Source: Polynucleobacter sp. MWH-Braz-FAM2G
GTDB taxonomy: Bacteria > Pseudomonadota > Gammaproteobacteria > Burkholderiales > Burkholderiaceae
Assembly (NCBI RefSeq): GCF_018687635.1
Contig: NZ_CP061300.1
Span: 806,001 to 870,000 of the forward strand
Direction: 5' to 3'
DNA length: 64,000 nucleotides
Part shown: positions 3,259 to 30,964 of the stretch, in pieces
Layout of the letters: the number at the start of each line of letters is the position of its first letter
Numbering within the stretch: position 1 is the stretch's first letter
The notes under the pieces: model-generated
Told to the model about the DNA's origin: nothing
Databases searched by the model: none
What the model saw: the letters and a program-made list of their open reading frames with translations, nothing else
Program-made: the position numbers and the translations under genes

Positions 3259-4584
3259 TTGAGCTCAGCACACCAAGCCCCTATATTATTTCTCAGCCTA
3301 GAGGCTTGGCTTAGCCATCTTGAAACTGCCCACCCTGTCGGGATCGATATGGGTCTTGAGCGAATTAATCGGGTAAAAGCTGCCCTAGATCTTCATTTTG
3401 ATTGCCCAGTCATTACCGTTGCTGGCACAAATGGTAAAGGTTCAACTTGCGCTTTTTTAGAAAGCATTCTGTTGGCTTCGGGTTATCGGGTCGGTTGTCA
3501 TACATCTCCGCATTTACTCAAATTTAATGAGCGCGCTCGTATTAATGGCGAAGATGTCAATGACAACTTATTACTTGAACACTTTGCGGCTGTTGAAAAA
3601 GCGCGCGTCAGTTTGGTTGATGCACCTACATTAACTTATTTTGAATTCACCACCTTGGCGATCATGCATTTGTTTGCTAAATCCAATTTAGATGCGGTTA
3701 TCTTGGAGGTTGGAATGGGTGGACGTTTAGACGCGGTCAATATTGTGGATGCTGACTGCGCTATCGTGACTAGTATTGATATCGATCATGCTGATTTCTT
3801 GGGAGGAACCAGAGAGGCTATTGGCCTTGAAAAAGCGGGCATTTTTCGTCCAGGACACATTGCGGTATGTGGCGATCCTGTGCCACCCCAGTCATTAATC
3901 GATTACGCCGAGAAGTTAGGATGTGATCTTTGGTTGCAAGGACGTGACTACAATTTTCAGGGTGACAAACAGCAATGGGGATGGGCGGGGCGTAAAAAAC
4001 GTTTTAGTGGTCTTGGCTACCCGGCATTACGGGGCGCCAACCAAATCCTGAATGCATCTGCTGTAGTGGCTGCATTAATGGCTCTTCATCAGCGTCTGCC
4101 TGTAAGCGCCCAAGATATTCGGAATGGTTTTGCTCTAGTTGAGTTGCCTGGCCGGTTTCAGGTCTTACCAGGTCAGCCAACAGTTGTCTTGGATGTTGCT
4201 CACAACCCCCATGCGGCTGCAACATTGGCGCAGGGTCTCGATAAGATGGGTTATCACCCCTATACCTATGCCATTTTTGGTGCGATGACCGATAAGGATA
4301 TTGAGGGGGTCATTAAACCCCTTCTCAATATTGTTGATTTCTGGTTTTGCACCGATTTACCCACTTCAAGAGCTGCGAGCGCTAAGGATTTAGCAGAGAA
4401 GCTTGAATCCATGGGGGTTAAGCCAAAAAACGGGGCAGATGGTGGTATTGAATGCTTCCCAGATCCTGCTGCAGCGTATCAAAAAGCCCTTTCAAAGGCA
4501 GGTGAGGGTGATAGAATTGTGACCTTCGGATCCTTCTATACCGTTGCAGGCGTAATGACTTACCGAAACAACCAGGCCCACTGA
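3259..4584 (+). CDS. folC: Dihydrofolate synthase / folylpolyglutamate synthase
   Basis: 441 residues, starting at a TTG codon 4 bases after the accD stop. This Mur-ligase-family enzyme adds glutamate to dihydropteroate and folates using ATP. The P-loop is VAGTNGKGST, followed by the family segments GCHTSPHL and EVGMGGRLDAVN; VLDVAHNPHA lies in the C-terminal domain. The TTG is the only start with a sensible position relative to accD. Cotranscription with accD and the SPOR protein is likely. Confidence 0.95.
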   Translation: MSSAHQAPILFLSLEAWLSHLETAHPVGIDMGLERINRVKAALDLHFDCPVITVAGTNGKGSTCAFLESILLASGYRVGCHTSPHLLKFNERARINGEDVNDNLLLEHFAAVEKARVSLVDAPTLTYFEFTTLAIMHLFAKSNLDAVILEVGMGGRLDAVNIVDADCAIVTSIDIDHADFLGGTREAIGLEKAGIFRPGHIAVCGDPVPPQSLIDYAEKLGCDLWLQGRDYNFQGDKQQWGWAGRKKRFSGLGYPALRGANQILNASAVVAALMALHQRLPVSAQDIRNGFALVELPGRFQVLPGQPTVVLDVAHNPHAAATLAQGLDKMGYHPYTYAIFGAMTDKDIEGVIKPLLNIVDFWFCTDLPTSRAASAKDLAEKLESMGVKPKNGADGGIECFPDPAAAYQKALSKAGEGDRIVTFGSFYTVAGVMTYRNNQAH

Positions 4585-9544: not shown

Positions 9545-9853
9545 TTATGCTTTTTTAGCGTAAGCAGAGCACCAGCCTTTGCCAGATACTTGCTTACCAG
9601 CAAACAAAGAGCAGCCGCCAGAGGCAGAACCAGGCTTACCTTGGTACAAAGCACAGTTATCGCATTGCTGACCAGCAGCATACTTTGCATATTTTGCTTT
9701 ATCTACCTTGGAAGCATCGGCTTTGTAACCCAAGGCGGCAGCTTGTGGATCAGTTTCTGCAACCATTGCTTGCGCTTGAACCTTGCCGTTCAATGCCAGA
9801 GTACAGGCACCAGCAGCAGACAAAATCATAAATTGGCGACGACTATTCTTCAT
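9545..9853 (-). CDS. High-potential iron-sulfur protein (HiPIP)
   Basis: 102 residues from the ATG at 9853. A Tat signal SRRQFMILSAAGA runs to a cleavage site near AQA-MV, so the folded protein acts in the periplasm. The four [4Fe-4S] ligands are C64, C67, C81 and C95 (CX2C, X13, C, X13, C), the HiPIP spacing, in the usual tail ...GGCSLF...GWCSAYAKKA. HiPIPs are soluble one-electron carriers linking a bc1 complex or periplasmic oxidoreductases to an oxidase. Longer upstream starts exist but would bury the Tat signal. It is divergent from a rhodanese gene. Confidence 0.95.
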   Translation of the reverse strand: MKNSRRQFMILSAAGACTLALNGKVQAQAMVAETDPQAAALGYKADASKVDKAKYAKYAAGQQCDNCALYQGKPGSASGGCSLFAGKQVSGKGWCSAYAKKA

Positions 9854-9975
9854 GGATTCTCCAGTATTTGAGTAAATAAAAAATTTGAAACTATCTTTTG
9901 ATGATCTTAAAGGTGTTGCTACCTTCAACAATAGGGGTTTCTCAGTATTAAGTTTGCTGTAAATTGAGATCACAC

Positions 9976-10051: not shown

Positions 10052-10627
10052 ATGAAAAAGTTTTTAATTTTGGGTTTAGTGTTGTTTTCTGGTTTGGTGG
10101 CTGCTCAGCCTTCTTCGCCTGAGCTATTGCAAATTATTGATAAATCAACCAACTTTGTGGTGAATACCCCAAAGGGTCCAATCGAGATTACTCGCGTCAT
10201 GACACCATGCGCTAAAAATAAAGGTTGGTTGCAGCCATTAATTCCTATTAAGGGTGTGGTACCAGTTGATGAGATTGATGTGCTGAATGCTTTAAACGAC
10301 AAAGATTCCTTGGTTGTAGATATGCGCGTTGTGGATGACCGAGTAAAAGGTACGATCCCTGGATCCATTGGCATCCCGTATACCGAGGTTGCTATGCGAA
10401 TGGATGAATTAGGGTGTAAAAAACCCACTACAGGTTCATCTAAGTGGGATTGTTCTAAGGCCAAAAAGGTTTATGCGTTTTGCAATGGTCCCGTTTGCCC
10501 ACAAAGTCCAATGGCTATGGCTGCAATGACGCGTGATGGCTTCCCAGCAACTAAGATTTATTACTATCGTGGGGGCATGTTGGATTGGGATGCTTTGGGT
10601 CTTACAACAGTGAAGGGTGAGTTTTGA
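10052..10627 (+). CDS. Exported rhodanese-domain protein, cysteine-rich
   Basis: 191 residues. Signal peptide MKKFLILGLVLFSGLVAA, then one rhodanese-like domain containing SLVVDMRVVDDRVKGTIPGSIGIPY. The active loop is YAFCNGPVCPQSPMAM, with C144 as probable persulfide-carrying residue and C149 close by; further cysteines occur at TPC, LGCKK and WDC. It would transfer sulfane sulfur in the periplasm. The ATG at 10052 follows GAGGGG; a TTG at 10040 is less likely. It is divergently arranged with the HiPIP gene. Confidence 0.85.
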   Translation: MKKFLILGLVLFSGLVAAQPSSPELLQIIDKSTNFVVNTPKGPIEITRVMTPCAKNKGWLQPLIPIKGVVPVDEIDVLNALNDKDSLVVDMRVVDDRVKGTIPGSIGIPYTEVAMRMDELGCKKPTTGSSKWDCSKAKKVYAFCNGPVCPQSPMAMAAMTRDGFPATKIYYYRGGMLDWDALGLTTVKGEF

Positions 10628-10849: not shown

Positions 10850-11377
10850 ATGATTGATAAAGAGGCGCAACCCAAGTCCACGACTTATATGAATCCCTTA
10901 TTAGCAGGGCTTCTTCTTGGTATGGTGTTACTGGCGACTTTTGTATTTACAGGCCATGGGCTTGGGGCAACAGGATTCACAACTCGCTTAACTGCATGGA
11001 TTGGAATGTATGTTGCTCCGGTTGCCACTAATGCAAACGATTACCTCGGCGGAATGGTTGAGGAGGGAAGACCACTCAATGCCTGGATAACTTGGCAGGT
11101 GATAGGTGTTGCTATCGGTGCATTGTTGTCAGCATTTGTTGCCAAGAGAATTCACATTCAATTGGATGGAAAAAAGTTTCTCGGCGGATCTAAGCGCCCT
11201 TTGACTGCTTTGTTTGGCGGTATTTTGGCAGGCTTTGGGGCAAGGGTAGCTGCGGGTTGCACTAGCGGTCTTGGATTGTCTGGCGCAGCGGTTCTCAGTT
11301 TGGCAGGCTTTACTTTTCTTGCAACCTTCTTTGGGGTGGGTTTGTTGGTAAGTCGTATGTTGAAAGAGGAGAAATAA
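10850..11377 (+). CDS. YeeE/YedE family sulfur-transport protein, first half
   Basis: 175 residues, a membrane protein with about four to five helices. The family signature is AGFGARVAAGCTSGLGLSG, with the Cys believed to handle thiosulfate or other sulfur compounds in YeeE (TsuA)-type transporters. It carries only one half of the two-lobed YeeE fold; the next gene supplies the other half, 1 base downstream. Similar split pairs are found with BigR-type regulators and rhodaneses. It is the first gene of a seven-gene operon ending at 14350. Confidence 0.88.
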   Translation: MIDKEAQPKSTTYMNPLLAGLLLGMVLLATFVFTGHGLGATGFTTRLTAWIGMYVAPVATNANDYLGGMVEEGRPLNAWITWQVIGVAIGALLSAFVAKRIHIQLDGKKFLGGSKRPLTALFGGILAGFGARVAAGCTSGLGLSGAAVLSLAGFTFLATFFGVGLLVSRMLKEEK

Positions 11378-11378
11378 G

Positions 11379-11945
11379 ATGAGCGAGATTCTTTCAGGCC
11401 TTCTTTTGGGCGCTGGCTTTGGTTTTGTCTTGGAGCGAGCTGGCTTTGGAAATCCAAATAAGTTAACTGGTCAATTTCGTTTAACTGATTGGTCAGTTTT
11501 CAAGGTGATGTTTACTGCAATTGTGTTTGCAGCTGTAGGGCTCTTGATTTTGGAGAAATTTGGTTATGTAGATGCGGATAATTTATTTGTGCCGCCAGCA
11601 TTTTTAGGGGCTGCCGCCTTGGGTGGTGCACTTGTGGGTGCAGGTTTTGCAATTGGTGGCTATTGTCCTGGAACCTCTGTGGTCGGACTGATGTCTGGCC
11701 GTATTGATGCGGCGATATTTTTATTTGGATTAATTTTAGGAACGGTATTGTTTGCTGGTATTTATCCAAGTATCGAGTTCTTAACATCCATGGGCGAGTA
11801 CACAAAAGCGGATACGTTATCTAATGCCTTCAATATCTCTAATCTATCTATTGATATTGGGATGATTGTTGCTGCAGTTGGTGTTTTTGCTTTAGGAACT
11901 TGGATGGAAAAGAAATTGCAGGGCCCAATTAATTCTCAAACTTAA
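11379..11945 (+). CDS. YeeE/YedE family sulfur-transport protein, second half
   Basis: 188 residues with about five helices. The half-signature GGYCPGTSVVGLMSGR carries the conserved Cys in the membrane, and the N-terminus LLLGAGFGFVLERAGFGNP is typical of the DUF6691-type half. It presumably pairs with the preceding protein to build one transporter for reduced sulfur. The start follows the stop of its partner by 1 base, so the two are translationally coupled. Confidence 0.87.
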   Translation: MSEILSGLLLGAGFGFVLERAGFGNPNKLTGQFRLTDWSVFKVMFTAIVFAAVGLLILEKFGYVDADNLFVPPAFLGAAALGGALVGAGFAIGGYCPGTSVVGLMSGRIDAAIFLFGLILGTVLFAGIYPSIEFLTSMGEYTKADTLSNAFNISNLSIDIGMIVAAVGVFALGTWMEKKLQGPINSQT

Positions 11946-11963: not shown

Positions 11964-12197
11964 ATGTCTAAAAAATCAACTGTAGCTGCATTGGCACTTG
12001 CTTTGGCTGGTTTATCCGCGGCTCCACTAGCGCATTCGGCGGACGCACCTGCGAACCCAACAAGCGCAGAACAAAAAAACCCATGTGGTCCCAAAAAAGA
12101 TACGTCAAACCCATGTGGTCCCGCAAAGAAAAAAGCCGCTAACCCATGTGGCCCCGCTAATCCTTGTGGCCCAAAAAAGCGTAAAGCTGCAGAATAA
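11964..12197 (+). CDS. Small exported protein with four NPCGP motifs
   Basis: 77 residues, not recognised as a named family. A signal peptide (residues 1-26, MSKKSTVAALALALAG...AHSA) is followed by a short mature region of about 50 residues, rich in Lys, Ala and Pro. It has NPCGP at 39-43, 49-53, 60-64 and 66-70, so four cysteines in identical context and no other cysteine. The mature part looks unfolded. Plausible roles are binding of copper or another soft metal, or carrying sulfane sulfur on cysteine; neither can be shown here. An AAAGGAAAG ribosome-binding site precedes the ATG. It sits 18 bases after a sulfur transporter and 5 bases before an uncharacterised gene. Confidence 0.8.
   Translation: MSKKSTVAALALALAGLSAAPLAHSADAPANPTSAEQKNPCGPKKDTSNPCGPAKKKAANPCGPANPCGPKKRKAAE
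12069..12174 (+). repeat. Imperfect DNA repeats encoding NPCGP
   Basis: Three copies of AACCCATGTGG(T/C)CCC and one diverged copy (AATCCTTGTGGCCC) lie within the small exported-protein gene, spaced by 30, 33 and 18 bases. The near-identity at DNA level suggests recent repeat expansion, and copy number may differ between strains. Confidence 0.7.
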
Positions 12198-12202
12198 CCT
12201 AC

Positions 12203-12829
12203 ATGCTCACTCAATCTAATCTCTGGTTGGCTGCCCAAGAGCTTGCAAGCATTCAGATGCGATATGCAGGTGCAGGCCGAACCTTAAGTGAGGCTGCTTT
12301 AGGTGGTGCTAGGGATTTTGTTGAATGGCGACATTATCCAAACAATGACTTGGTCGACAAGGAGAGCGGCTATGAGTTTTATTACCATGCCCATCCTAAA
12401 GACGATATGCCAAAAGGAGAGCATGGTCATTTTCATGTAATTAAACGGGATGGAGAGCGTTTTCATCATCTCATTGGTATCGCGCTAGATCAAATGGGTC
12501 TGCCAACCAGATTGTTCACAACAAATCAGTGGGTTACTGGCGAAAACATGCTGAACGCGAAAATGGTAATGAAGTCCGTTAAAGGGTTTGAAATGTCCAC
12601 TAAAGGACGCGTGGCCCCAGTTTGTAAATGGATCAGCTCTCTAATTCAATTATTTTCATTAGAAATTGAGCAATTAATGTTGGAGCGTGATCAAAAGATA
12701 GCTCGATTAGTTGATGAATATGGAAATCGTGATCTTGTATTGAATTTAAGAGAGCATCATGTCTTAACGGAGTGCAAAATAGATTTAATGGGTCGCCTTT
12801 CAGATAATTTGTTGGTTGTAAATTCATAA
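12203..12829 (+). CDS. Uncharacterised cytosolic protein (possibly DUF6969)
   Basis: 208 residues without signal peptide or membrane helix. The middle is rich in aromatic and histidine residues: VEWRHYPNNDL, GYEFYYHAHP and GEHGHFHVI, then FHHLIGIALDQMGLP and TNQWVTGENM. The second half is helical. The HAH and HGHFH motifs could bind metal. I believe this matches DUF6969 but cannot verify it. The gene starts 5 bases after the NPCGP protein, which makes a functional pair likely. It has no similarity that I recognise to known RiPP-modifying enzymes. Confidence 0.75.
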   Translation: MLTQSNLWLAAQELASIQMRYAGAGRTLSEAALGGARDFVEWRHYPNNDLVDKESGYEFYYHAHPKDDMPKGEHGHFHVIKRDGERFHHLIGIALDQMGLPTRLFTTNQWVTGENMLNAKMVMKSVKGFEMSTKGRVAPVCKWISSLIQLFSLEIEQLMLERDQKIARLVDEYGNRDLVLNLREHHVLTECKIDLMGRLSDNLLVVNS

Positions 12830-12839
12830 GGGAGTAAAA

Positions 12840-13817
12840 ATGAAAAAGATTCAATGGTTATTAGCCTTCGTTCTAGCGAGTTGCATAAGCCTAGCTCAAG
12901 CAATTACATTGCCTGGTCCAGTTGTCAGCGCAGACTGGCTGGCAAATAATCTATCTGAGGTTCAGGTAATTGAAGTGAGAACGGATTTGGATAGCTATCT
13001 TAGAAACCCGGAATTTGACACTGATAAAAAAACTGGCAAGAAATTCTTGGTCGAGGTAGGTGGTCACATTACCAATTCAAGCTTGCTAGACTTTAAGAAG
13101 GTGCGAGCTGAGCGTTTGGTTGATGGTAAAAAAATTAAATTCCTAATCCCTGAAAAGGCCGACTTTGAAAAGCTGGTTCAATCATTGGGTATTAATTCAG
13201 ATAAGCCGATCATTCTTGTGCCAATTGGCCAAGATATGTCTGATATCGATGAGGCATTACGTACCTATTGGTCATTCAAGGTTTATGGCGAAGATCAGGT
13301 TGCTGTATTGGACGGTGGAATTGCTGGTTGGTTAAGTGAAGGTCGTGAGTACACAACTGCCAATACTCCAAAAACGACTGGTAATTGGTCTTCTAAAGCA
13401 GAGCGCAAGGAATTGATCGCTAGTTCAGATGATGTGGCGGCTGCTTCAAAAAGTGGCAAACCACAATTGTTGGATGCTCGTCAGCCTGCTCAATACTTGG
13501 GTCTTGCAAAACGCCCAGACGTAATGACATTTGGCCATATTGCCGGCTCTAAAGAATTGGCCCCTGAGTTGTTGGCAAAATCTAGTAATGGCGCTTTATA
13601 TTTCTGGTCGAAGAATACCTATGACGCATTGATGGCGGCTAATGGTTTAAATATTAAAGGCCCAACGATCGCTTATTGCAATACTGGTCACTTAGCAGCT
13701 GGCGGTTGGTTTGTAATGTCTGAGCTGGTGGGAAATAAATCAACTAAGCTATACGATGGATCTTTGTATCTTTGGACTTTAGAGGGTCGCCCATTAGTTG
13801 GTGTGCCGCTTAATTAA
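12840..13817 (+). CDS. Exported two-domain rhodanese (thiosulfate sulfurtransferase)
   Basis: 325 residues. Signal peptide MKKIQWLLAFVLASCISLAQA, then two rhodanese domains. The first has EVRTDLDSYLRNP and a catalytically empty loop. The second has LLDARQPAQYLG and the active loop IAYCNTGHLAAGGW with catalytic C280. It would move sulfane sulfur in the periplasm, from thiosulfate or persulfide to an acceptor. It lies 10 bases after the uncharacterised gene and 11 bases before the ArsR gene, inside the same operon. Confidence 0.9.
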   Translation: MKKIQWLLAFVLASCISLAQAITLPGPVVSADWLANNLSEVQVIEVRTDLDSYLRNPEFDTDKKTGKKFLVEVGGHITNSSLLDFKKVRAERLVDGKKIKFLIPEKADFEKLVQSLGINSDKPIILVPIGQDMSDIDEALRTYWSFKVYGEDQVAVLDGGIAGWLSEGREYTTANTPKTTGNWSSKAERKELIASSDDVAAASKSGKPQLLDARQPAQYLGLAKRPDVMTFGHIAGSKELAPELLAKSSNGALYFWSKNTYDALMAANGLNIKGPTIAYCNTGHLAAGGWFVMSELVGNKSTKLYDGSLYLWTLEGRPLVGVPLN

Positions 13818-13828
13818 GAGTATTTAAC

Positions 13829-14146
13829 ATGCCAATCGTAAAAACAAACGTAAGTCTAAAAAAGATGCAGTCTTCAGCAGATAAGGCTTGCCGCTTGATG
13901 AAGGTTCTTGCAAATAGGGATCGTATGTTGCTACTTTGTCAAATTAGTCAAGGCGAAATGTGTGTTAGCGAGCTTGAGGAATGTCTTGATATTCATCAGC
14001 CGACATTGTCGCAACAGCTTACGGTTTTGAGAAACGAGGAATTAGTCCAAACTAGAAGAGAGGGTAAGCAAATTTATTATTCGCTCTCTAACGAGGCAGT
14101 CATGGATGTAATGAATGTGCTTTATGAAAATTACTGTAGTAAATAA
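13829..14146 (+). CDS. ArsR-family persulfide-responsive repressor (BigR/SqrR-like)
   Basis: 105 residues, a winged helix: MCVSELEECLDIHQPTLSQQLTVLRNEELVQTRREGKQIYYSL. C37 (LLLCQISQGE) and C103 (ENYC) fall where BigR and SqrR keep the cysteine pair that forms a disulfide or polysulfide bridge and releases DNA; C45 and C52 are extra. It probably represses its own operon through the AT-rich palindrome at 10801-10822. Family role is established knowledge; the target site is inference. Confidence 0.9.
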   Translation: MPIVKTNVSLKKMQSSADKACRLMKVLANRDRMLLLCQISQGEMCVSELEECLDIHQPTLSQQLTVLRNEELVQTRREGKQIYYSLSNEAVMDVMNVLYENYCSK

Positions 14147-14164: not shown

Positions 14165-14350
14165 ATGAAAAGCAATGTTGGTGGTATGGATCGTATGTTA
14201 CGTATATTGGTTGGCCTAGTACTAATTGGTCTAGCTGCAACTGGAACCGTCGGGGTCTGGGGTTGGATTGGCGTTGTTCCTCTTGCAACAGGTCTATTTA
14301 AATTTTGTCCCGCCTATACCGTTTTAGGGATAAATAGCTGTAGCAAATAA
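14165..14350 (+). CDS. DUF2892 (YgaP-like) small membrane protein
   Basis: 61 residues: N-terminal KSNVGGMDRMLRILVGL, two membrane helices, and C-terminal FCPAYTVLGINSCSK. This is the DUF2892 domain, which in E. coli YgaP is fused to a membrane rhodanese. Here it stands alone behind a rhodanese and an ArsR regulator, so it may anchor or serve the same sulfur-transfer system. It closes the operon and is followed directly by a terminator. Confidence 0.88.
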   Translation: MKSNVGGMDRMLRILVGLVLIGLAATGTVGVWGWIGVVPLATGLFKFCPAYTVLGINSCSK

Positions 14351-20019: not shown

Positions 20020-21420
20020 ATGACTAAGAAGCAAATTGAATTAAATGTGGAAGATGTCTCGGCTATTGAGAAGCCTGCAAATAGAGCTCGTTTAGTTAAA
20101 GCTCCAGAACACTTTATCTCTCAAGAGTTGATTGCCGACATCAATACCAATGGTCTTGATGAAACGCGTCGCGGCTTCTTGCGCAAAGGATTTATGTCCG
20201 CAGTTGGTGGAGCCGCAGCTAGCTTGGCTGCGCCACTAGCTTTTGCTGCTGGTGAAGGTGATCCAGCGATTCTTGAGAAACAAGAATGGCAAACCACATT
20301 GGGTAAAAACGTTGCCACAATGCCCTATGGGGTGCCCTCAATCTATGAGGCCAATTTAATTCGCCGTGAATCCCCAGGCTTAACGCGTGTATCAGCCGCT
20401 TCTGTTGCGTTTACTCCTTTGCAAGGATTGTTTGGAACGATTACTCCTAATGGCTTGCATTTCGAACGTCATCACCAGGGTTGGTATAACTTAAATCCAG
20501 AAACCCATCGATTGATGGTAAATGGTCTGGTGAAAAATGCTCGCGTGTTTACCATGAATGACTTAATGAGATTGCCTTCCGTCTCTCGTACACACTTTAT
20601 TGAGTGCGGTGCGAATACTGGTCTTGAGTGGGGTAACGTTGCCGTGCCAACCGTGCAGTACACCCACGGCATGTTGTCTTGCTGTGAATTTACAGGAGTA
20701 CCTCTCAAGGTGTTGCTTGAAGAGTGCGGCGCAGATCTGAAAAAAGGTAAGTTTCTGCTTGCCGAAGGTGGTGATGGCTCAGGTATGACTCGTACCATCA
20801 ATTTAGAAAGCTGCTTGGACGATACGATTGTTGCTTGGAGCATGAACGGTGAGATGCTGCGCCCAGAAAATGGCTTTCCATTGCGCCTAGTGGTTCCAGG
20901 GGTGCAGGGGGTTAGTTGGGTGAAATGGTTGCGCCGCCTTGAAGTGGGCGATATGCCTTGGAATGCTAAAGATGAGGCTGTTCATTACATTGAGCTCATG
21001 CCTGATGGAATGCATCGCCAATATGCCTCCATTCAAGAATGTAAGTCTGTTATCACGACACCTTCTGGTGGACAGCAATTATTAGATAAGGGCTTCTATA
21101 ACGTAAGCGGCATGGCTTGGTCAGGGCGTGGCAAGATAAAGCGCGTTGATGTTTCTTTTGACGGTGGTAATAACTGGCGTACTGCACGACTTGAGACACC
21201 AATCCTAACTAAATCCATTACTCGTTTCAATATTGATTGGGTGTGGGATGGTTCACCTGCAATTCTGCAATCTAGAGCAGTGGATGACACTGGCTATATT
21301 CAGCCATCCATTAAGGTTTTGCGTGATTTGCGTGGCAATCGTTCCATCTATCACAACAATGCAATTCAATCTTGGAAGTTAGATTCAAATGGAGAGGTGA
21401 GCAATGTTCAAGTTGGTTAA
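20020..21420 (+). CDS. soxC: Sulfur dehydrogenase molybdenum subunit SoxC
   Basis: 466 residues from the ATG at 20020, preceded by AGAGG. A Tat signal (RRGFLRKGFMSAVGGAAASLAAPLAFAA) exports the folded molybdoenzyme. The sulfite-oxidase-type fold has THFIECGANTG with the molybdenum-ligating Cys (C196), and a dimerisation domain (VSGMAWSGRGKIKRVDVSFDGG). With SoxD it oxidises the SoxY-bound sulfane sulfur by six electrons. Its last 17 bases overlap soxD. Confidence 0.96.
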   Translation: MTKKQIELNVEDVSAIEKPANRARLVKAPEHFISQELIADINTNGLDETRRGFLRKGFMSAVGGAAASLAAPLAFAAGEGDPAILEKQEWQTTLGKNVATMPYGVPSIYEANLIRRESPGLTRVSAASVAFTPLQGLFGTITPNGLHFERHHQGWYNLNPETHRLMVNGLVKNARVFTMNDLMRLPSVSRTHFIECGANTGLEWGNVAVPTVQYTHGMLSCCEFTGVPLKVLLEECGADLKKGKFLLAEGGDGSGMTRTINLESCLDDTIVAWSMNGEMLRPENGFPLRLVVPGVQGVSWVKWLRRLEVGDMPWNAKDEAVHYIELMPDGMHRQYASIQECKSVITTPSGGQQLLDKGFYNVSGMAWSGRGKIKRVDVSFDGGNNWRTARLETPILTKSITRFNIDWVWDGSPAILQSRAVDDTGYIQPSIKVLRDLRGNRSIYHNNAIQSWKLDSNGEVSNVQVG

Positions 21421-22501
21421 TTTGATTGCTCGTTTGAGTTTAGTGAGTGCTCTAGCGCTCACTGCTCAGTTATCAATCGCACAAAGTACACAGGGTACAC
21501 AGGGTTCAACAAAGTTCCCTGGTATAGGGCGTAATGCAACCCCTGCTGAAGTAATTGCATGGGATATAGATGTGCGTCCTGACTTTAAAGGTTTGCCTAA
21601 AGGATCTGGATCGGTAGAGCAGGGCCAAGCGATTTGGGAGTCTAAGTGCGCTAGTTGCCATGGTGTCTTTGGAGAGTCTAATGAAATCTTTACACCTATT
21701 GCTGGCGGAACTACTGCTGATGATATAAAAACTGGAAGAGTTGCTTCATTAGCGGATCGAAAGCAACCGCAACGGACCACCTTAATGAAGGTGCCAACTG
21801 TGTCCACTTTGTGGGATTACATTTATCGGGCTATGCCTTGGAATGCGCCAAGATCATTAACACCGAATGATACCTATGCACTGGTGGCGTTTATTTTGAG
21901 CCTAGGCGAAATTGTTCCGGATGATTTTGTATTAAGTGACGCCAATATTGCTGAAGTACAAAAAAAGATGCCAAACCGAAATGGTATGACTCGTAATCAT
22001 GGTTTCTGGAGTGTGAATGGCAAACCAGATGTTAATGGCTCTTCTTGCATGACTAATTGCGTGAAGTTTGTACAAATTGGCTCTACTCTTCCGGATTTTG
22101 CAAGAAATGCTCATGGCAATATTGCAGAGCAAAATCGACTGTATGGTCCTTATCGCGGATCGGATTCAACAAAACCTCCATTAGCCAAACTACCTGGCTC
22201 ATCAGGCGAAGGCCTCGCTCATGCTGCTGATACTCATGCTGCCTCGACTAAAGGTCCGGCTGCGTTATTTAAAAATGAAAATTGTTCAGCATGTCATGCG
22301 CCTAATGCCAAATTAGTAGGGCCATCTATTGCGGACATTGCTGCCAAATACAAGGGGCAGAGTGGCGCTCAAGAAAAGCTCATGGCAAAGGTTAAAAATG
22401 GGGGCTCAGGAGTGTGGGGGGCAATACCAATGCCACCGCAGTCACAGTTATCAGATGAGGATAGAGCGACTCTAGTGCGCTGGGTTCTTACTGGGCAATA
22501 G
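21404..22501 (+). CDS. soxD: Sulfur dehydrogenase cytochrome subunit SoxD
   Basis: 365 residues with a signal peptide (cleavage near LSIAQS). There are two c-type heme sites: C82-A-S-C85-H86 and C294-S-A-C297-H298, so it is a diheme SoxD. A linker with SGEGLAHAADTHAAS separates the heme domains. It accepts electrons from SoxC in the periplasm. Presence of both soxC and soxD predicts complete oxidation of thiosulfate to sulfate rather than sulfur-globule formation. The start is inside soxC with GGAGAGG upstream. Confidence 0.95.
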   Translation: MFKLVNLIARLSLVSALALTAQLSIAQSTQGTQGSTKFPGIGRNATPAEVIAWDIDVRPDFKGLPKGSGSVEQGQAIWESKCASCHGVFGESNEIFTPIAGGTTADDIKTGRVASLADRKQPQRTTLMKVPTVSTLWDYIYRAMPWNAPRSLTPNDTYALVAFILSLGEIVPDDFVLSDANIAEVQKKMPNRNGMTRNHGFWSVNGKPDVNGSSCMTNCVKFVQIGSTLPDFARNAHGNIAEQNRLYGPYRGSDSTKPPLAKLPGSSGEGLAHAADTHAASTKGPAALFKNENCSACHAPNAKLVGPSIADIAAKYKGQSGAQEKLMAKVKNGGSGVWGAIPMPPQSQLSDEDRATLVRWVLTGQ

Positions 22502-22568
22502 ATTTACAGAAGATTTTTTGAAATACCGCTATATTTGATACTAAGAGTAGATTATTAAAGGAGTTTTT

Positions 22569-23021
22569 ATGAATCAGCAGCGACGCAGTTTATTGAAATA
22601 TTCAGCTGTTTTTGGCTTGATGGCATCCGCAGGTCTTATTAGCGTAGCCCAGGCTCAAGAGTGGAACAAAGCCGCTTTTGAGGGCAAGAGTTTAGATGAT
22701 GTTTTTAAAATTCTAGGCGCAGGCAGTCCTGACAAGTCTGGCGCAGTAACTTTGAATGCACCAGATATTGCTGAAAACGGTGCAGTGGTTCCAGTTGGTA
22801 TTACAACCACTCTTAAAGCAGAGCAAATGGCAATCTTGGTTGAGAAAAATCCAAGCGCCTTAGCTGCGCAATTCTTTATTCCTGCTGGTACAGAGCCTTT
22901 TGTCACTACTCGTATCAAGATGGGTCAAACATCCAATGTGTACGCCTTGGTTAAAGCGGATGGAAAGTGGAGCATGGCTGTAAAAGAGGTGAAGGTCACT
23001 TTAGGTGGCTGTGGCGGTTAA
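22569..23021 (+). CDS. soxY: Sulfur carrier protein SoxY
   Basis: 150 residues. Tat-type signal (QQRRSLLKYSAVFGLMASAGLISVAQA) and the diagnostic flexible tail GGCGG, whose C148 carries sulfur intermediates during the Sox cycle. It is exported with SoxZ. It follows soxD by 67 bases with AAAGGAG before the ATG. Confidence 0.97.
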   Translation: MNQQRRSLLKYSAVFGLMASAGLISVAQAQEWNKAAFEGKSLDDVFKILGAGSPDKSGAVTLNAPDIAENGAVVPVGITTTLKAEQMAILVEKNPSALAAQFFIPAGTEPFVTTRIKMGQTSNVYALVKADGKWSMAVKEVKVTLGGCGG

Positions 23022-23079
23022 TTGCCTATCCGAATTTAACTAAACACTATTAATTAATTACTAGATACAAGAGGAAAAC

Positions 23080-23388
23080 ATGGCTGATCCAATGCGCGTT
23101 AGAGCTGCTGAAAACGGTGGAATTGTGGATGTAAAGATTTTGATGAAGCACGATATGGAATCTGGTCAGCGTAAAGATGCTGCTGGTAAAACAATTCCTG
23201 CATGGTTCATCAGCACTATCAATGTCAAAGCTAATGGCAAAGATGTATTAAATGGTCAGTTTGGTCCAGCAGTTTCCAAGGATCCATTCTTGAACTTCAA
23301 ATACAAAGGCGCCAAGGGTGACAAGATTGTGGTGAGCTGGGTGGATAGTAAAGGTGACAAGCGTACTGATGAAGCGACTGCTTCTTAA
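23080..23388 (+). CDS. soxZ: Sulfur compound chelating protein SoxZ
   Basis: 102 residues, beta-sandwich partner of SoxY: VDVKILMKHDMESGQRKDAAGKTIPAWFI and NGQFGPAVSKDPFLNFKYKG are typical. It has no signal peptide and is exported with SoxY by the Tat system. AAGAGGAAA precedes the ATG. Confidence 0.97.
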   Translation: MADPMRVRAAENGGIVDVKILMKHDMESGQRKDAAGKTIPAWFISTINVKANGKDVLNGQFGPAVSKDPFLNFKYKGAKGDKIVVSWVDSKGDKRTDEATAS

Positions 23389-23443
23389 TTGCTAGTTGAA
23401 TTCATAAATCTTTACCATCTCATGGGTTTTGAAAGGGTTGCAA

Positions 23444-24259
23444 ATGCAGCGTAAATTTACATTAGGGCTAGCTTCAGGATTAGTGGCTACCTTACTAGCA
23501 GTATCGTCGTCAGTCACGGCACAAAATAGTGCTACAGACGATATCGCGAAATATCGCGAGATGATTGCTGATGGAAACCCTTCAGAACTTTATGAGGCAG
23601 CTGGCGAAGATTTGTGGAAAAAGCCTGCTGGCCCAAAGAACGCCACTCTAGAAAAGTGTGATTTAGGCTTAGGGCCCGGGGTAGTAAAGGGTGCTGCAGC
23701 ACAGTTGCCGCGCTATTTCAAAGATACCAATAAGGTTCAAGATCTTGAATCCCGTTTGATAACCTGTATGCAACAGTTGCAAGGGCGTGATCCACAAGAG
23801 ATGATTGATGCACCGTTTCAAAAGGGCCCCAAGAAAGATATGGAGGCTATTGTTGCTTATGTGGTCACCTTATCTAAAGGTGAAAAAATTAAAGTCAGCA
23901 CAGCACATCCAAAAGAAAAAGAAATGTATGAGCTTGGTAAGCGTGCATTCTTTTTCCAAGGCGGCCCTATGGATTTCTCATGTGCTTCATGCCATGGCGA
24001 AGATGGTAAGCGTATTCGTCTGCAGGATTTGCCGAATATTACAACTCAAAAAGGCGCTGCTCTAGGTTGGGGTTATTGGCCTGCATATCGCGTATCCAGT
24101 GGGCAATTCTGGACGATGCAGCAACGTTTGAATGATTGCTACCGTCAACAGCGCTTCCCATTCCCTATTTATACCTCTGATGTCACGATTGCTTTATCTA
24201 TGTATATGGCGAAGAACGCCAATGGCGGTACCGTTGAAACACCTGGTTTAAAGCGTTAA
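23444..24259 (+). CDS. soxA: L-cysteine S-thiosulfotransferase subunit SoxA
   Basis: 271 residues from the ATG at 23444 (GAAAGGG upstream), with a signal peptide. One CXXCH heme site is present at C180-ASC183-H184, and the Cys ligand that becomes persulfide-modified is C232 in NDCYRQQRFPF. The N-terminal lobe has C72 (KCDLG) and C108 (ITCMQQ) in place of the second heme, as in mono-heme SoxA proteins. With SoxX it couples thiosulfate to SoxY. Confidence 0.95.
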   Translation: MQRKFTLGLASGLVATLLAVSSSVTAQNSATDDIAKYREMIADGNPSELYEAAGEDLWKKPAGPKNATLEKCDLGLGPGVVKGAAAQLPRYFKDTNKVQDLESRLITCMQQLQGRDPQEMIDAPFQKGPKKDMEAIVAYVVTLSKGEKIKVSTAHPKEKEMYELGKRAFFFQGGPMDFSCASCHGEDGKRIRLQDLPNITTQKGAALGWGYWPAYRVSSGQFWTMQQRLNDCYRQQRFPFPIYTSDVTIALSMYMAKNANGGTVETPGLKR

Positions 24260-24278
24260 TGGATAAGAGGCAGAGAAT

Positions 24279-24917
24279 ATGAACATGAAGAATATTAAAT
24301 CCCTCTTAGCCCTTGGTAGTTTTGCCTTGGTCGCAGCAATGATGCATGGCAATGCAGTTGCACAACAAGCTAATGATCCTAAATTTAACAAAATGATGAA
24401 GGATGGTTTTCGGGCTGACGGTATTGCTGGTCTAGACCGTATTGTCCAAGATGAAACTCAAAAGTTTTGTTCCGATCCTGTTTTTGCAAACAGTAAGAAG
24501 GGCGAAAAGATGCGTGACAAGATTCAGAAAATGAATATGGAAAGCATCAAGCAACCGTCTGATGGTAAATACATCGGTGATTGGAAGAAGGGTGAGGCGA
24601 TTGCACAGAGCGGTCGTGGTGCCACTTGGTCTGATAAGGCTGATACTGTTATTGGAGGTGGTTGCTACAACTGTCACCAGATCGATCCTAAAGAAATTTC
24701 CTATGGAAATATTGGCCCATCATTAACGGGCTATGGAAAGTTGCGTGGTTATTCGCAGGAAGTGGTTACCTATACCTGGAATCGTATTAACAATTCCAAG
24801 GCATATAACGCATGCAGCAATATGCCACGGTTCGCACACTTTAAGCTCTTAAATGAGCAGCAAATTCAGGACGTCATGGCTTTACTGCTTGATCCTAATT
24901 CGCCAGTTAATCAATAA
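24279..24917 (+). CDS. soxX: Sulfur oxidation c-type cytochrome SoxX
   Basis: 212 residues with a signal peptide (cleavage near AVAQQ). One heme site, C129-YNC132-H133, is followed by IGPSLTGYGKLRG and the C-terminal CSNMPRFAHFKLLNEQQI with a Met ligand. It is longer than the shortest SoxX forms because of an N-terminal helical segment of about 90 residues. It forms the SoxXA thiosulfotransferase with the preceding gene. Confidence 0.95.
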   Translation: MNMKNIKSLLALGSFALVAAMMHGNAVAQQANDPKFNKMMKDGFRADGIAGLDRIVQDETQKFCSDPVFANSKKGEKMRDKIQKMNMESIKQPSDGKYIGDWKKGEAIAQSGRGATWSDKADTVIGGGCYNCHQIDPKEISYGNIGPSLTGYGKLRGYSQEVVTYTWNRINNSKAYNACSNMPRFAHFKLLNEQQIQDVMALLLDPNSPVNQ

Positions 24918-24927
24918 AGAATAAAAG

Positions 24928-24947
24928 AACAGGCCGAGAGGCCTGTT
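24928..24947 (+). terminator. Hairpin between soxX and soxB
   Basis: Arms AACAGGCC / GGCCTGTT around GAGA, followed by TTA rather than a long T-run. It may be a weak terminator or an mRNA-processing or attenuation site that lowers soxB relative to the upstream genes. Confidence 0.55.
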
Positions 24948-24965
24948 TTACTAAGGGGAAATAAT

Positions 24966-26696
24966 ATGTCTTTAAGTCGTCGCGATTTTTTGCAAGCCCT
25001 CGCTATAGCCTCAGCTGGTGGCATGAGTTTGCAATCGAATTTTGTTAATGCACAAACTACCGCGCAAAAGTTTTATGACTTACCAAAATTCGGGAACGTC
25101 CATTTTCTGCACTTTACCGATTGTCACGCACAGTTGTTGCCAATCTATTTTCGTGAGCCCAATGTCAATCTTGGTATTGGTAGTCAAGAAGGCAAGACAC
25201 CTCACTTGGTTGGAGAATATTTTTTAAAAGCAAATGGGATAGCTCCAGGTACCCGTGATGCTCATGCTTTTACCTACTTGGATTATGTTGCTGCGGCTCA
25301 AAATTACGGCAAGATGGGTGGCTTTGCGCATATGGCCACGTTGATTAAGCAAGTGAAAGCCAATCGTCCGGGGGCATTGTTACTTGATGGTGGCGATACA
25401 TGGCAGGGCTCGGGAACTGCTCTTTGGACCAATGGTCAAGATATGGTCGATGCAGCATTGGCATTGGGAGTAGATGTCATGACGCCCCATTGGGAAATGA
25501 CTCTTGGCGAAAAGCGGGTTATGGAAATCGTCAATGGGGATTTCAAGGGAAAAGTTTCATTTATTGCACAAAACATTAAGACATCTGATTTTGGCGATAT
25601 CGTTTTTAACCCTTATGTCATGAAAGTCCAGAATGGTATTCAAGTTGCCATTATTGGACAGGCCTTCCCTTATACACCGATTGCAAATCCCCGTTATTTC
25701 ACCCCCGACTGGACTTTTGGTATTCAGGAAGAGAATATGCAAAAGACTATCGATGAGGTGAGATCCAAAGGAGCTAAGGTAGTGGTGCTTCTATCTCACA
25801 ATGGTATGGATGTGGATTTAAAGATGGCTTCTCGAGTGCGCGGTTTAGATGCGATTTTAGGTGGCCACACTCATGATGGTGTACCCATTCCAGTCAAAGT
25901 AAAAAATGCTGGTGGAATAACTTTAGTTACTAATGCTGGTTCGAATAGTAAATTCTTGGGCGTACTCGATTTCGATGTGAAAGGCGGTAAGCCAGTAGAT
26001 TTTCGTTACAAACTGCTGCCAATCTTCTCAAATATGATTCCTGCAGACCCAACTATGAGTAAGCTCATTACAAAAGTCAGGGCTCCATATGAGGCAAAGT
26101 TGAATGAGAAGCTAGCCACTACTGAAGGTCTTTTATATCGTCGCGGTAATTTCAATGGAAGCTTTGATCAACTGATTCTGGATGGATTAATGACCCAGAA
26201 GAACGCTGAAATTGCATTCTCACCTGGTTTCCGCTGGGGAACTAGTCTATTGCCTGGTCAGGCAATCACTCGTGAGAATTTGTTGGATCAAACTGCGATT
26301 ACTTATCCATACACTACCGTTACCAATATGAGTGGTGAAACCATTAAAACCATTCTTGAGGATGTAGCGGATAACTTGTTTAACCCTGATCCGTATTATC
26401 AGCAGGGCGGAGACATGGTGCGGGTTGGAGGTATGCAATACACCATCGATCCTGCACAGACTGCAGGCAAAAGAATCACAGATATGCGTTTAAATGGCAA
26501 ACCCATTGAGGCCGGCAAGACTTATAAAGTCGCTGGCTGGGCTCCAGTTAGCGAAGAGGCAAAAAATGCTGGGGGTGAAGCAATTTGGGATGTGATGGAG
26601 CGCCACTTACAAGATGTAAAGGTAGTTAAAGCGGTTAAGCTAAACGAACCAATCATTAAGGGGGTTGCTAACAATCCTGGAATGGCCCCCATTTAA
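24966..26696 (+). CDS. soxB: Thiosulfohydrolase SoxB
   Basis: 576 residues. A Tat signal (SRRDFLQALAIASAGG) is followed by a dimanganese 5'-nucleotidase-type hydrolase. Visible metal-site motifs are HFTDCHAQLLP, LLLDGGDTWQGSG, LLSHNGMDVD and LGGHTHDG. It removes sulfate from SoxY-bound thiosulfate. An AAGGGGAAAT ribosome-binding region precedes the ATG. Confidence 0.97.
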   Translation: MSLSRRDFLQALAIASAGGMSLQSNFVNAQTTAQKFYDLPKFGNVHFLHFTDCHAQLLPIYFREPNVNLGIGSQEGKTPHLVGEYFLKANGIAPGTRDAHAFTYLDYVAAAQNYGKMGGFAHMATLIKQVKANRPGALLLDGGDTWQGSGTALWTNGQDMVDAALALGVDVMTPHWEMTLGEKRVMEIVNGDFKGKVSFIAQNIKTSDFGDIVFNPYVMKVQNGIQVAIIGQAFPYTPIANPRYFTPDWTFGIQEENMQKTIDEVRSKGAKVVVLLSHNGMDVDLKMASRVRGLDAILGGHTHDGVPIPVKVKNAGGITLVTNAGSNSKFLGVLDFDVKGGKPVDFRYKLLPIFSNMIPADPTMSKLITKVRAPYEAKLNEKLATTEGLLYRRGNFNGSFDQLILDGLMTQKNAEIAFSPGFRWGTSLLPGQAITRENLLDQTAITYPYTTVTNMSGETIKTILEDVADNLFNPDPYYQQGGDMVRVGGMQYTIDPAQTAGKRITDMRLNGKPIEAGKTYKVAGWAPVSEEAKNAGGEAIWDVMERHLQDVKVVKAVKLNEPIIKGVANNPGMAPI

Positions 26697-28535: not shown

Positions 28536-29657
28536 ATGGATGTTGTCGATATTAGCTCCATAAGTAAGTCAGTTCTCTGGGCAACATTTGCCATTACTTT
28601 TTTGCTTGGGGCGGTTATGCAAAAGACGGGTTTCTGCAGCATGGGTGCAGTCTCCGATGTTTTCATCATGTCAAGTTGGGATCGTTTAAGACAATGGTTC
28701 TTGGCGATTGGTGTGGCAATCATTGGTTTTGCCTTGATGTCTTATATTGGTTTGATTGACCCGCTGAAAAGTTTTTATACCTCCAGTAAATTTCTATGGC
28801 TTTCTACAATAGTAGGAAGTGTGCTGTTTGGCTTTGGTATGGTTTTGGCTTCAGGCTGTGGCAGCAAAACATTAATACGAATCGGCGGCGGGAATTTAAA
28901 GTCCATCATCGTGTTTATGGTTTTAGGTTTAACCGCTTATATGACGATGCGTGGTTTCTTGGGTGTCATTCGAATTAATACGCTCGATACTTTTTTTATA
29001 GCGTTGAATACCCCACAAGATTTGCCCAGTCTTTTGAGTGCACCTCTCGGCATTGCTCGTCCCACACTTCATTTAATTTTGGGGCTCATTATTGGCTTTG
29101 CATTTATTACTTTTGCTTTAGCTAACAAGGCATTTTGGACGGCCGAGAATTTACTCGCTGGCATTGCTGTTGGATTGGCAATCTGTGCTGTATGGTGGGT
29201 ATCTGGTAATTTGGGTTATGTCGCTGAAGACCCCAATACACTGGAAGAGGTATTTTTAGTTACGAACTCGGGGCGTATGGAAAGTCTATCCTTTGTGGCG
29301 CCTTATGCATACTCACTGGACTGGCTAATGATGTATAGCGACACCTCTAAAGTATTAACGGTGGGTATCGTCGCTGTTTTGGGGATGATTCTGGGTTCTG
29401 GTGCCGTTTCTGTTGTCACCAAATCCTTCCGTTGGGAATCCTTTCGCAATTCTGAGGACACTGCCAATCATTTGGTGGGCGCTGCTTTGATGGGCTTTGG
29501 TGGTGTTACTGCTTTGGGTTGTACCGTGGGGCAGGGCTTAAGCGGCATCTCTACATTGGCGATAGGTTCGCTTATAGCTTTACCTGGATTTATATTTGGT
29601 GCGTATTTAGGTTTGCGCTACTTGCAGTTGCGTCTTGCGCCTAACCCTTGCAGTTAA
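28536..29657 (+). CDS. YeeE/YedE family sulfur transporter, full length
   Basis: 373 residues with about nine to ten membrane helices and both half-signatures in one chain: VLASGCGSKTLIRIGGGN in the first lobe and TALGCTVGQGLSGISTLAIG in the second. This is the architecture of the thiosulfate importer YeeE/TsuA and of SoxT proteins in sox clusters. It is 19 bases behind the cytochrome gene and 23 bases before another, split YeeE/YedE pair. Confidence 0.88.
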   Translation: MDVVDISSISKSVLWATFAITFLLGAVMQKTGFCSMGAVSDVFIMSSWDRLRQWFLAIGVAIIGFALMSYIGLIDPLKSFYTSSKFLWLSTIVGSVLFGFGMVLASGCGSKTLIRIGGGNLKSIIVFMVLGLTAYMTMRGFLGVIRINTLDTFFIALNTPQDLPSLLSAPLGIARPTLHLILGLIIGFAFITFALANKAFWTAENLLAGIAVGLAICAVWWVSGNLGYVAEDPNTLEEVFLVTNSGRMESLSFVAPYAYSLDWLMMYSDTSKVLTVGIVAVLGMILGSGAVSVVTKSFRWESFRNSEDTANHLVGAALMGFGGVTALGCTVGQGLSGISTLAIGSLIALPGFIFGAYLGLRYLQLRLAPNPCS

Positions 29658-29680
29658 TTTTCAAATTACGGAAATAGATA

Positions 29681-30118
29681 ATGCAAATTGATTGGATATC
29701 TTTTACGCCAGTTCCATCCTTGCTAGGAGGAATGATTCTGGGTGTTGCAGCAGCACTTTACGTTTTGTTGCATGGTCGCATCCTTGGCATCAGCGGTATT
29801 GTTTCTGGCTTACTGCATCCAAAACGGAGTGATTCTGCTTGGCGAGTGAGTTTGGTATTGGGTCTGCTTACCTCACCATTTCTGGCTGCTTTATTCTTTG
29901 GAATGTTCCCCATTGTTGAAATTGAGGCAGATTGGATTGCCATTGTAATTGCTGGCCTTCTAGTGGGCTTTGGTGCTCAATATGGCTCTGGTTGTACAAG
30001 TGGGCATGGTATTTGCGGGCTCTCTCGTTTATCGCCCAGATCCCTTGTTGCCACAATCTCTTTTATGACTGCAGGATTCATCACGGTCTATGTTTTGCGT
30101 CATTGGATCGGAATCTAA
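29681..30118 (+). CDS. YeeE/YedE family protein, first half (second split pair)
   Basis: 145 residues, about four helices. It has the half-signature VGFGAQYGSGCTSGHGICGLSRLSPRS, which is the form seen in PmpA-type halves, and the N-terminal GMILGVAAALYVLLHGRILGISGI. It would pair with the product of the next gene, which begins 1 base after its stop. Confidence 0.9.
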   Translation: MQIDWISFTPVPSLLGGMILGVAAALYVLLHGRILGISGIVSGLLHPKRSDSAWRVSLVLGLLTSPFLAALFFGMFPIVEIEADWIAIVIAGLLVGFGAQYGSGCTSGHGICGLSRLSPRSLVATISFMTAGFITVYVLRHWIGI

Positions 30119-30119
30119 G

Positions 30120-30566
30120 ATGAAAAAGCATTTTGGTCTTTTGAGTCAGTACGCCATTGGTGTGTTGTTTGGATGGGGTTTGATCATCTCAGGGATGAGC
30201 AATCCACAGAAAATATTAGGATTTCTAGATTTGACAGGTCTTTGGGATCCTTCATTAATATTTGTGATGTTGGGGGCGGTAATCGTTGGTCTGGGCGGTT
30301 TTTATGTTGTTAGCAAAAGATCAGAAGCCTTTTTTGGCGGTGCTTTGCACATTCCGAAACGTCGAGATATTACGAAGCCACTCATTGTAGGTAGCTTGAT
30401 ATTTGGGGCGGGGTGGGGAATTGCTGGTTTTTGTCCTGGCCCAGCCTTAGTGGCTCTGGGTGCTGGACATCTGAAGGCATTGGTATTTGTGCTTGCGATG
30501 CTTGTTGGCATGGAAGTCTGTGAGCGTTTCTTCTCTGCGCACAAAAAGAAGCCTGTTCAAAGCTAA
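30120..30566 (+). CDS. YeeE/YedE family protein, second half (second split pair)
   Basis: 148 residues from the ATG at 30120, 1 base after the preceding stop; an in-frame ATG at 30090 inside the previous gene is less likely. The half-signature is AGWGIAGFCPGPALVALGAG and the N-terminus VLFGWGLIISGMSNPQKILGFLD is typical of DUF6691-like PmpB halves. About four helices. Together with its partner it makes the third YeeE-type transporter unit of this region. Confidence 0.9.
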   Translation: MKKHFGLLSQYAIGVLFGWGLIISGMSNPQKILGFLDLTGLWDPSLIFVMLGAVIVGLGGFYVVSKRSEAFFGGALHIPKRRDITKPLIVGSLIFGAGWGIAGFCPGPALVALGAGHLKALVFVLAMLVGMEVCERFFSAHKKKPVQS

Positions 30567-30581
30567 ATCAGGCTGATTTAG
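30563..30581. promoter_or_regulatory. Perfect 9-bp inverted repeat
   Basis: CTAAATCAG and CTGATTTAG flank a single G. The left arm contains the stop codon of the preceding gene and the repeat lies 39 bases before the DUF442 gene. It could be an operator or, as RNA, part of a terminator; the 1-base centre favours a protein-binding site. Confidence 0.4.
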
Positions 30582-30619
30582 AATCATCCTGTTCTGTATT
30601 TATTCATGTAGAGGGTCTT

Positions 30620-30964
30620 ATGAGTCTTCCTATTTCTTGCCATAGCGCTCAGTTTGGCACCTTGGGTCAAATTGATCCCAGTCATTTAGCTGAAATTGCT
30701 AAACAGGGCTATAAGAGCGTGATTAACAACCGTCCTGATGGTGAGGGTGGTCCAGATCAACCTACAAATGCCTCTATTCAGGCTGAAGCAGAAAAACTAG
30801 GCTTGAACTATGTTTACTTGCCAGTTGTTCCTGGAGCATTTACACCAGCACAAGTTCAAGAAATGGCTCGTCTATTAAAAACACTGCCAGGCCCTGTTTT
30901 GGCGTTTTGCCGCTCGGGTGCTCGCTCAACCAATTTATATCAGCTTGCATTACAGCTTGGTTAA
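30620..30964 (+). CDS. DUF442 / TIGR01244-family sulfur-transferase-like protein (Blh-like)
   Basis: 114 residues with a tyrosine-phosphatase-like fold: YKSVINNRPDGEGGPDQP and the catalytic-type loop VLAFCRSGARSTNLY, with C97 as likely nucleophile. In BigR-regulated operons the same domain is fused to a sulfur dioxygenase (Blh). Here it is free-standing, in a sulfur region, and without a visible dioxygenase partner. Transfer of sulfane sulfur or phosphatase activity are both possible. Confidence 0.85.
   Translation: MSLPISCHSAQFGTLGQIDPSHLAEIAKQGYKSVINNRPDGEGGPDQPTNASIQAEAEKLGLNYVYLPVVPGAFTPAQVQEMARLLKTLPGPVLAFCRSGARSTNLYQLALQLG

Follow-up and report, generated by a model that had tools for sequence, protein, structure and literature searches.

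What does a small, probably exported peptide do when all of its cysteines lie in one repeated motif, and its gene adjoins that of a histidine-rich protein among sulfur genes? The question arises from a 64,000-nucleotide stretch (here, the window; all coordinates without a locus label refer to it) of Polynucleobacter sp. MWH-Braz-FAM2G (RefSeq GCF_018687635.1, contig NZ_CP061300.1, positions 806,001 to 870,000), whose genome is a single contig of 2.17 Mb. Here, we report that the two genes form a recurrent unit, and we propose a role for it in periplasmic sulfur handling.

The peptide gene (11964..12197, + strand) encodes a 77-amino-acid precursor with exactly four cysteines, all inside NPCGP, and a signal-peptide-like N terminus (judged by eye and with a simple rule) that would suit export via Sec. 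Five bases separate its stop codon (12197) from the ATG (12203) of the partner gene (12203..12829, + strand), which encodes 208 amino acids containing YYHAHP and EHGHFH. Translation and coordinates thus agree with the initial annotation on the length of the peptide, on its cysteines, and on its spacing to a 208-residue protein with HAH and HGHFH motifs. That annotation also called the partner uncharacterized; it belongs to a named family, Pfam DUF6969 (PF22308; E value, 1.3e-52; 178.8 bits against a cut-off of 27; model positions 3 to 201 of 201), the function of which is indeed unknown. The closest relatives among the matches listed were from Polynucleobacter.

The pair lies within a run of seven same-strand genes in the order YeeE half A, YeeE half B, peptide, DUF6969, tandem rhodanese, ArsR regulator, and YgaP-type membrane protein, and the gaps of 1, 18, 5, 10, 11, and 18 bases suggest one operon. 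Upstream of the pair, the initial annotation placed one sulfur transporter; we found two half-proteins of the YeeE/YedE type, one (10850..11377) matching Pfam Sulf_transp at model positions 174 to 306 of 310 (3.5e-18) and the other (11379..11945) at positions 2 to 159 (3.4e-15). The rhodanese that it placed downstream is there: a tandem protein of the mercaptopyruvate/thiosulfate sulfurtransferase type with a signal-peptide-like start (12840..13817; Pfam Rhodanese, 1.9e-15; PDB rhodanese 1rhd, 8.6e-22). The ArsR-family regulator (13829..14146) is of the SqrR/BigR type, its C37 and C103 aligning with the two cysteines of PDB 13ct/6o8l (we take 6o8l to be SqrR) and of BigR 3pqj; it scored 108.8 bits (1.1e-31) against the cut-off of 155 of the NCBIfam BigR equivalog NF040642 and so falls outside that narrower class. 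By these cysteines, it is a probable persulfide sensor. The last gene (14165..14350) encodes a YgaP-like transmembrane protein (Pfam YgaP-like_TM, 2.3e-23). A further rhodanese-like protein with an exported-looking N terminus (10052..10627, + strand; Pfam Rhodanese, 3.3e-8) is a possible accessory upstream of the cassette; by tblastn, 5 of 98 loci have a protein of its type no farther than 4.5 kb from DUF6969. On the opposite strand, immediately ahead of the sulfur genes, lies a gene for a HIPIP high-potential iron-sulfur protein (9545 to 9856; 8.6e-27).

About 8 to 14 kb from the cassette is a sox cluster (20020..26696, + strand), in which Pfam identified SoxY (9.9e-33), SoxZ (8.2e-34), and SoxA (SoxA-TsdA_cyt-c, 1.1e-33); the other genes matched general families only, and we presume from their position and from known sox clusters that they are SoxC/D-like, SoxX-like, and SoxB-like. 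The true SoxY is encoded at 22569 to 23021, and the peptide did not match the SoxY Pfam profile at E values up to 1. All 30 Polynucleobacter genomes searched for SoxY have it, including 14 that lack DUF6969, which makes the pair an accessory that Sox does not require; among the 16 that do have DUF6969, SoxY and DUF6969 lie within about 11 kb of each other in 10. Just past the sox genes (28536 to 30964) is a second sulfur transporter set within 20 kb, comprising a full-length Sulf_transp protein, a Sulf_transp half-protein with a further membrane protein, and a BLH_phosphatase (DUF442) protein.

The peptide matched no family above the cut-off in Pfam and NCBIfam and none at an E value of 0.1 in PHROGs, so at these thresholds the prospect that it belongs to a named family with another function was looked for and rejected. 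Among 19 distinct copies of the 77-amino-acid gene, the four cysteines were invariant with both Cys codons in use, and uncorrected pN/pS was 0.029 at motif codons, compared with 0.15 in the signal region, 0.18 in the linker, and 0.12 in the rest of the core. Purifying selection in the gene is thus strongest on the motifs. This pattern, together with the control windows described below, speaks against a motif that arose by chance, and we rejected that explanation.

Recurrence of the pair was examined in the genus, across the phylum, and around individual DUF6969 genes. Among 121 Polynucleobacter genomes, DUF6969 occurred in 39, the pattern NPCxxxNPC in 38, and both in 36, where the distance between the pattern and the DUF6969 match was always 63 to 110 bases. 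A search for the same pattern in the 82 genomes that lack DUF6969 yielded two matches, both spurious (one with in-frame stops; the other in a Lys/Ala-rich gene, in a different frame). Each of the three DUF6969 genomes lacking the pattern has an adjacent Cys peptide of another kind, with KSPCGP (G516), KCGAK-type (G511), or KCAPK-type (G518) motifs. In G516 (locus L186, upstream of position 4260), the peptide is down to one KSPCGP while DUF6969 and rhodanese are retained, which reflects either decay or the sufficiency of one motif. The phylum sample contained DUF6969 in 20 of 398 genomes, and NPCxxxNPC occurred in 14 of these 20, compared with 39 of the 378 others, 27 of which had a single match. 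Among the 14, the NPC gene is far from DUF6969 in G076 and on another contig in G141; the six DUF6969 genomes without the pattern include four with an adjacent Cys-rich peptide (G300, G386, G431, and G447) and two with none (G147 and G221).

In a strict scan, 63 of 101 DUF6969 loci had, no more than 3 kb away, a Cys-repeat open reading frame whose start resembles a signal peptide, as opposed to 2 of 102 control windows (centered 7 kb away and present only where the locus was long enough); the repeat finder was designed after the first loci had been viewed, and the export rule was crude. The remaining 38 loci include 7 that are cut close to the gene, and the scan missed L119, L121, and L143, where NPC genes are present, as well as L140 (partly masked) and L186 (single motif). 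Close relatives are present in both this set and the 98-locus set used for neighbor counts, and one genome is counted twice (L065 and L132). One species-level genome set contains at least 564 stretches that encode DUF6969. DUF6969 and a Cys-repeat peptide therefore form a recurrent two-gene unit, far beyond chance, and the expectation that the two genes co-occur elsewhere was borne out in the genus (36 of 39) and across loci.

The association is not one to one. No Cys-repeat gene was found near the DUF6969 genes of G147, G221, and Azospirillum. Of 24 genomes without a near repeat, nine contained a pattern match, eight of them plausible by the matched letters; matches were inspected further in G534 and in the G076/G542 genome only. 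Conversely, eight genomes of one family, f57, encode NPC-repeat proteins but gave no DUF6969 match (L190 to L197, some genomes incomplete), so DUF6969 is not universally needed. A strict one-to-one relation was rejected on these two grounds. In several of these loci, the NPC repeats, possibly a second, DUF6969-independent version, are joined to a SoxA-like cytochrome part (L190, 5033 to 5668; L194, 4636 to 5349; L195, 1759 to 2370; L196, 4608 to 5243; L197, 2972 to 3595), which Pfam confirmed in L196 only. Beside the NPC-repeat gene are genes for a multihaem cytochrome and an FGE-sulfatase in L196 and for a radical-SAM/DUF3641 protein and a methyltransferase in L194.

The peptides beside DUF6969 vary in motif (NPCGP/NPCAP, NPCAAK, NPCAAN, KPCAAK, KCAPK, KCGAK, CAAC, and APCAA), and DUF6969 is the most constant partner of these diverse Cys-repeat peptides. 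Five of them (L076, L139, L205, L207, and L208) share an N-terminal RN[TI]LLFG, which could be a recognition element. Repeats are also fused to larger domains, namely SoxA-TsdA cytochromes (L069, 5.8e-7; L071, 6.1e-10; L187, 2.5e-7), cytochrome P460 (L151, 3.4e-6; L066, 1.8e-4, below the cut-off), and a Blh-type phosphatase-like (BLH_phosphatase) domain (L131, 5.6e-8). The Blh domain (DUF442) was shown experimentally to be a sulfurtransferase in Xylella, in the work described in PMC5823870.

In an alignment of 67 DUF6969 sequences, P46, D52, H62, H64, G75, H76, F77, H78, H89, F105, N108, W110, V111, T112, W143, R162, and D163 were invariant and E73 nearly so. AlphaFold2 models of two DUF6969 proteins had pLDDT values of 95.8 (the partner in the window) and 94.8; in the first, predicted beta strands contain H62, H76, H78, and H89, and H64 immediately follows one such strand. 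Neither model had a Foldseek match at an E value of 0.001 or below, the best VIA-align Z score of the first was only 3.5, and the profile of the 67 sequences found no relative in the PDB below an E value of 0.7. No mention of DUF6969 was found among the terms and papers searched, and literature matches to the motif strings were unrelated by title. The protein has no evident signal peptide and so should act in the cytosol, before export. The initial annotation had remarked that no peptide-modifying enzyme is adjacent; as written this is unsupported, since the adjoining DUF6969 protein is itself the best candidate for an enzyme that modifies or handles the peptide.

A short precursor with repeated Cys motifs and a dedicated adjoining partner gene, here with a putative signal peptide, is also the mark of bufferins and other MNIO-dependent Cys peptides that bear signal peptides; bufferins are described in PMC12452194 as MNIO-modified, copper-chelating peptides that contain cysteines and a signal peptide. 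Unlike them, the pair stands in a sulfur-related cassette, with no DUF2063 in the flanking genes scanned and no MNIO (PF05114) match at an E value of 0.001 or below in the whole window genome, so an MNIO enzyme acting from elsewhere in that genome was rejected. No MNIO was found in 17 other DUF6969-bearing Polynucleobacter genomes; the same search did find it in G300 and G417, and G300 has a peptide-DUF6969-rhodanese run with two MNIO genes elsewhere in the genome. Within 4.5 kb of DUF6969, MNIO was found in 1 of 98 loci (L079, 5646 to 9161), where DUF6969 lies in an MNIO-DUF2063-DoxX bufferin-like operon with a CGAKCGAK peptide, so that both partner types share one cluster; in L073 and L145, MNIO is farther from DUF6969. 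The pair resembles Cys peptides of the bufferin kind in its working but falls outside the bufferin system, since no MNIO enzyme was found. In PMC12452194, which surveys the MNIO landscape, a word search of the main text found no rhodanese, SoxA, P460, or NPC.

Three sulfur systems offer further comparisons. As in SoxYZ and SoxAX, a periplasmic protein cysteine would carry a sulfur intermediate, the role proposed for the peptide, and repeats elsewhere are fused to SoxA/TsdA-type domains; unlike SoxYZ, the peptide does not match SoxY, has several cysteines per chain and its own partner, and is encoded in a genome that has SoxY and SoxZ too. The bigR operon (BigR, Blh, and a TauE-related transporter, as given in PMC5823870) likewise brings together a regulator of the SqrR/BigR type, a sulfurtransferase, and a sulfur transporter, and in L131 repeats are fused to a Blh-type domain; the passages of PMC5823870 on that operon mention neither a Cys-repeat peptide nor DUF6969. 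The cassette transporters are Sulf_transp family membrane proteins, as are the YeeE/TsuA thiosulfate transporters, but they are split into two half-proteins, are joined to the peptide pair, and score far below the NCBIfam TsuA cut-off.

Neighbors of DUF6969 elsewhere were labeled by tblastn over 4.5 kb with single seed proteins, those of the window for the cassette genes (the open reading frame caller being poor in GC-rich DNA), so diverged members were missed. By this measure, 39 of 98 loci had a rhodanese, 34 YeeE half A, 35 half B, and 34 both rhodanese and YeeE; every one of these last 34 also encodes a Cys-repeat peptide, which the strict scan detected in 31 and which was recognized otherwise in L119, L121, and L143. 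Among the 34 are Polynucleobacter, Tibeticola, Thiomonas, Hydrogenophaga, a Gallionellaceae metagenome-assembled genome, Arenimonas, and Guyparkeria, and YeeE and rhodanese beside DUF6969 recur in Beta-, Gamma-, and Alphaproteobacteria. A BigR-like regulator was found in only 11 of the 98, mostly Polynucleobacter. Of the company suggested by the initial annotation, rhodanese is thus common and BigR largely confined to the genus. In Sinorhizobium medicae, the existing annotation reads sulfurtransferase, YeeE/YedE, and then a hypothetical protein that is DUF6969; YeeE in Sinorhizobium went undetected by our seeds. In S. medicae, S. meliloti 1021, and Ciceribacter thiooxidans, a Cys peptide that lacks annotation is encoded directly ahead of DUF6969. 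Sinorhizobium and Ciceribacter have the same set of genes, and in S. meliloti 1021, a standard laboratory strain, the cassette is on pSymB. DUF6969 occurs on plasmid records of Sinorhizobium (104 to 108), Burkholderia (47), and Azospirillum (13), with L207 as an example, so the system is partly plasmid-borne.

On a quick tree of 76 rows, the DUF6969 proteins of sulfur contexts require 5 label changes, against a shuffled mean of 25.5; a single clade of them was rejected (p-AU, 0.005), in a test made after a first tree had been seen. For the two quick trees, 11 and 20 rows, either near-copies or awkward sequences, were taken out manually; of the loci fetched, some stand outside the trees (L068, L070, L081, L185, and L186, for example). 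In Thalassospira and part of Rhodospirillales, DUF6969 is accompanied not by sulfur genes but by FGE-type, UspA, and TRAP genes (in 16, 15, and 16 of 98 loci, respectively, by tblastn), with the Cys peptide about 2 kb off or elsewhere in the genome. The 16 loci with an FGE-sulfatase-family gene within 4.5 kb are L067 (9335 to 10198), L068, L070, L129, L140, L141, L146, L149, L150, L153, L154, L158, L159, L160, L162, and L164. FGE enzymes act on cysteine and may be further modifiers of the same Cys peptides.

We consider the best explanation of the whole to be that DUF6969 readies the peptide cysteines in the cytosol and that the exported peptide handles periplasmic sulfane sulfur, and we give this reading a probability of about 0.5. 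The peptide would be exported by Sec, its working part being the run of Cys motifs. DUF6969, probably a metal-dependent enzyme with a His/Glu-bound metal, would modify, protect, or load the cysteines beforehand. Once in the periplasm, the finished peptide would cooperate with the rhodanese, itself exported, and with the two YeeE halves, its own cysteines accepting sulfane sulfur (from thiosulfate or persulfide) and either buffering it or handing it on for uptake. A persulfide-sensing repressor would control the cassette, beside the Sox pathway. The initial annotation had offered sulfane sulfur or a soft metal as the cargo; the former gains from the SoxA/TsdA and Blh-type fusions, the nearby sox cluster, and the conserved regulator cysteines, and the latter becomes a rival.

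In that main rival, the peptide would chelate copper or some other soft metal in the periplasm much as a bufferin does, DUF6969 would take the place of MNIO in its maturation, and sulfur genes would adjoin it as sulfide and soft metals are handled together. The composition of L079, where DUF6969 sits beside MNIO, DUF2063, DoxX, and a CGAKCGAK peptide, points to metals, as do the MNIO genes elsewhere in L073 and L145, sigma-factor genes within 4.5 kb of DUF6969 in 4 of 98 loci, and the bufferin precedent itself. We nevertheless find metal buffering rather unlikely here: MNIO proximity is confined to that one locus in 98 and the window genome yielded none, the cassette consists of sulfur transport, rhodanese, and SqrR/BigR-type regulator genes with no metal pump among those scanned in the window, and repeats elsewhere are fused to SoxA/TsdA and Blh-type domains.

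Alternatively, DUF6969 might have no enzymatic activity and serve in the cytosol to chaperone or escort the peptide, binding it in reduced form, perhaps via a metal, and keeping it export competent with its cysteines unmodified. Pairing with motifs as different as NPCGP, NPCAAK, KPCAAK, KCGAK, and CAAC would suit such loose binding of Cys segments, and the RN[TI]LLFG leader could be where DUF6969 grips; yet the invariant H62, H64, H76, H78, H89, N108, and W110 and the near-invariant E73, on or next to predicted strands, would suit a catalytic or metal site better than a groove for a peptide, and we hold the chaperone role to be improbable. Still harder to credit is general thiol or redox protection, in which the peptide would be a periplasmic thiol buffer or electron relay and carry neither sulfur nor metal as a specific cargo: YeeE and rhodanese, the partners that recur, are sulfur specific, which outweighs for us the fusions to c-type cytochrome and P460 domains and the multihaem cytochrome gene beside the DUF6969-free version in L196. 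For the main reading itself, the strongest counterevidence is the repeats without DUF6969 (L190 to L197), the Azospirillum DUF6969 genes without nearby repeats, and the one metal-type operon.

The pair is real, widespread, and, within the literature searched, undescribed. A bolder reading, which we would sooner bet against but which leaves a new enzyme class a realistic chance, is that DUF6969 is the first of a new class of enzymes that mature ribosomal peptides, with a fold of its own and a metal site made of several histidines. In many Pseudomonadota, it would charge or convert the cysteines of exported proteins with Cys repeats, and the products would be multisite periplasmic sulfane-sulfur carriers that feed YeeE and SoxA-like cytochromes. 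The anonymous family DUF6969 is now tied to Cys-repeat proteins and, for a large share of its loci, to sulfur transport and rhodanese genes, which turns it into a testable peptide-maturation system. If the proposal is true, it would add a second, MNIO-independent way of making exported Cys peptides and would represent a new way of moving sulfane sulfur there.
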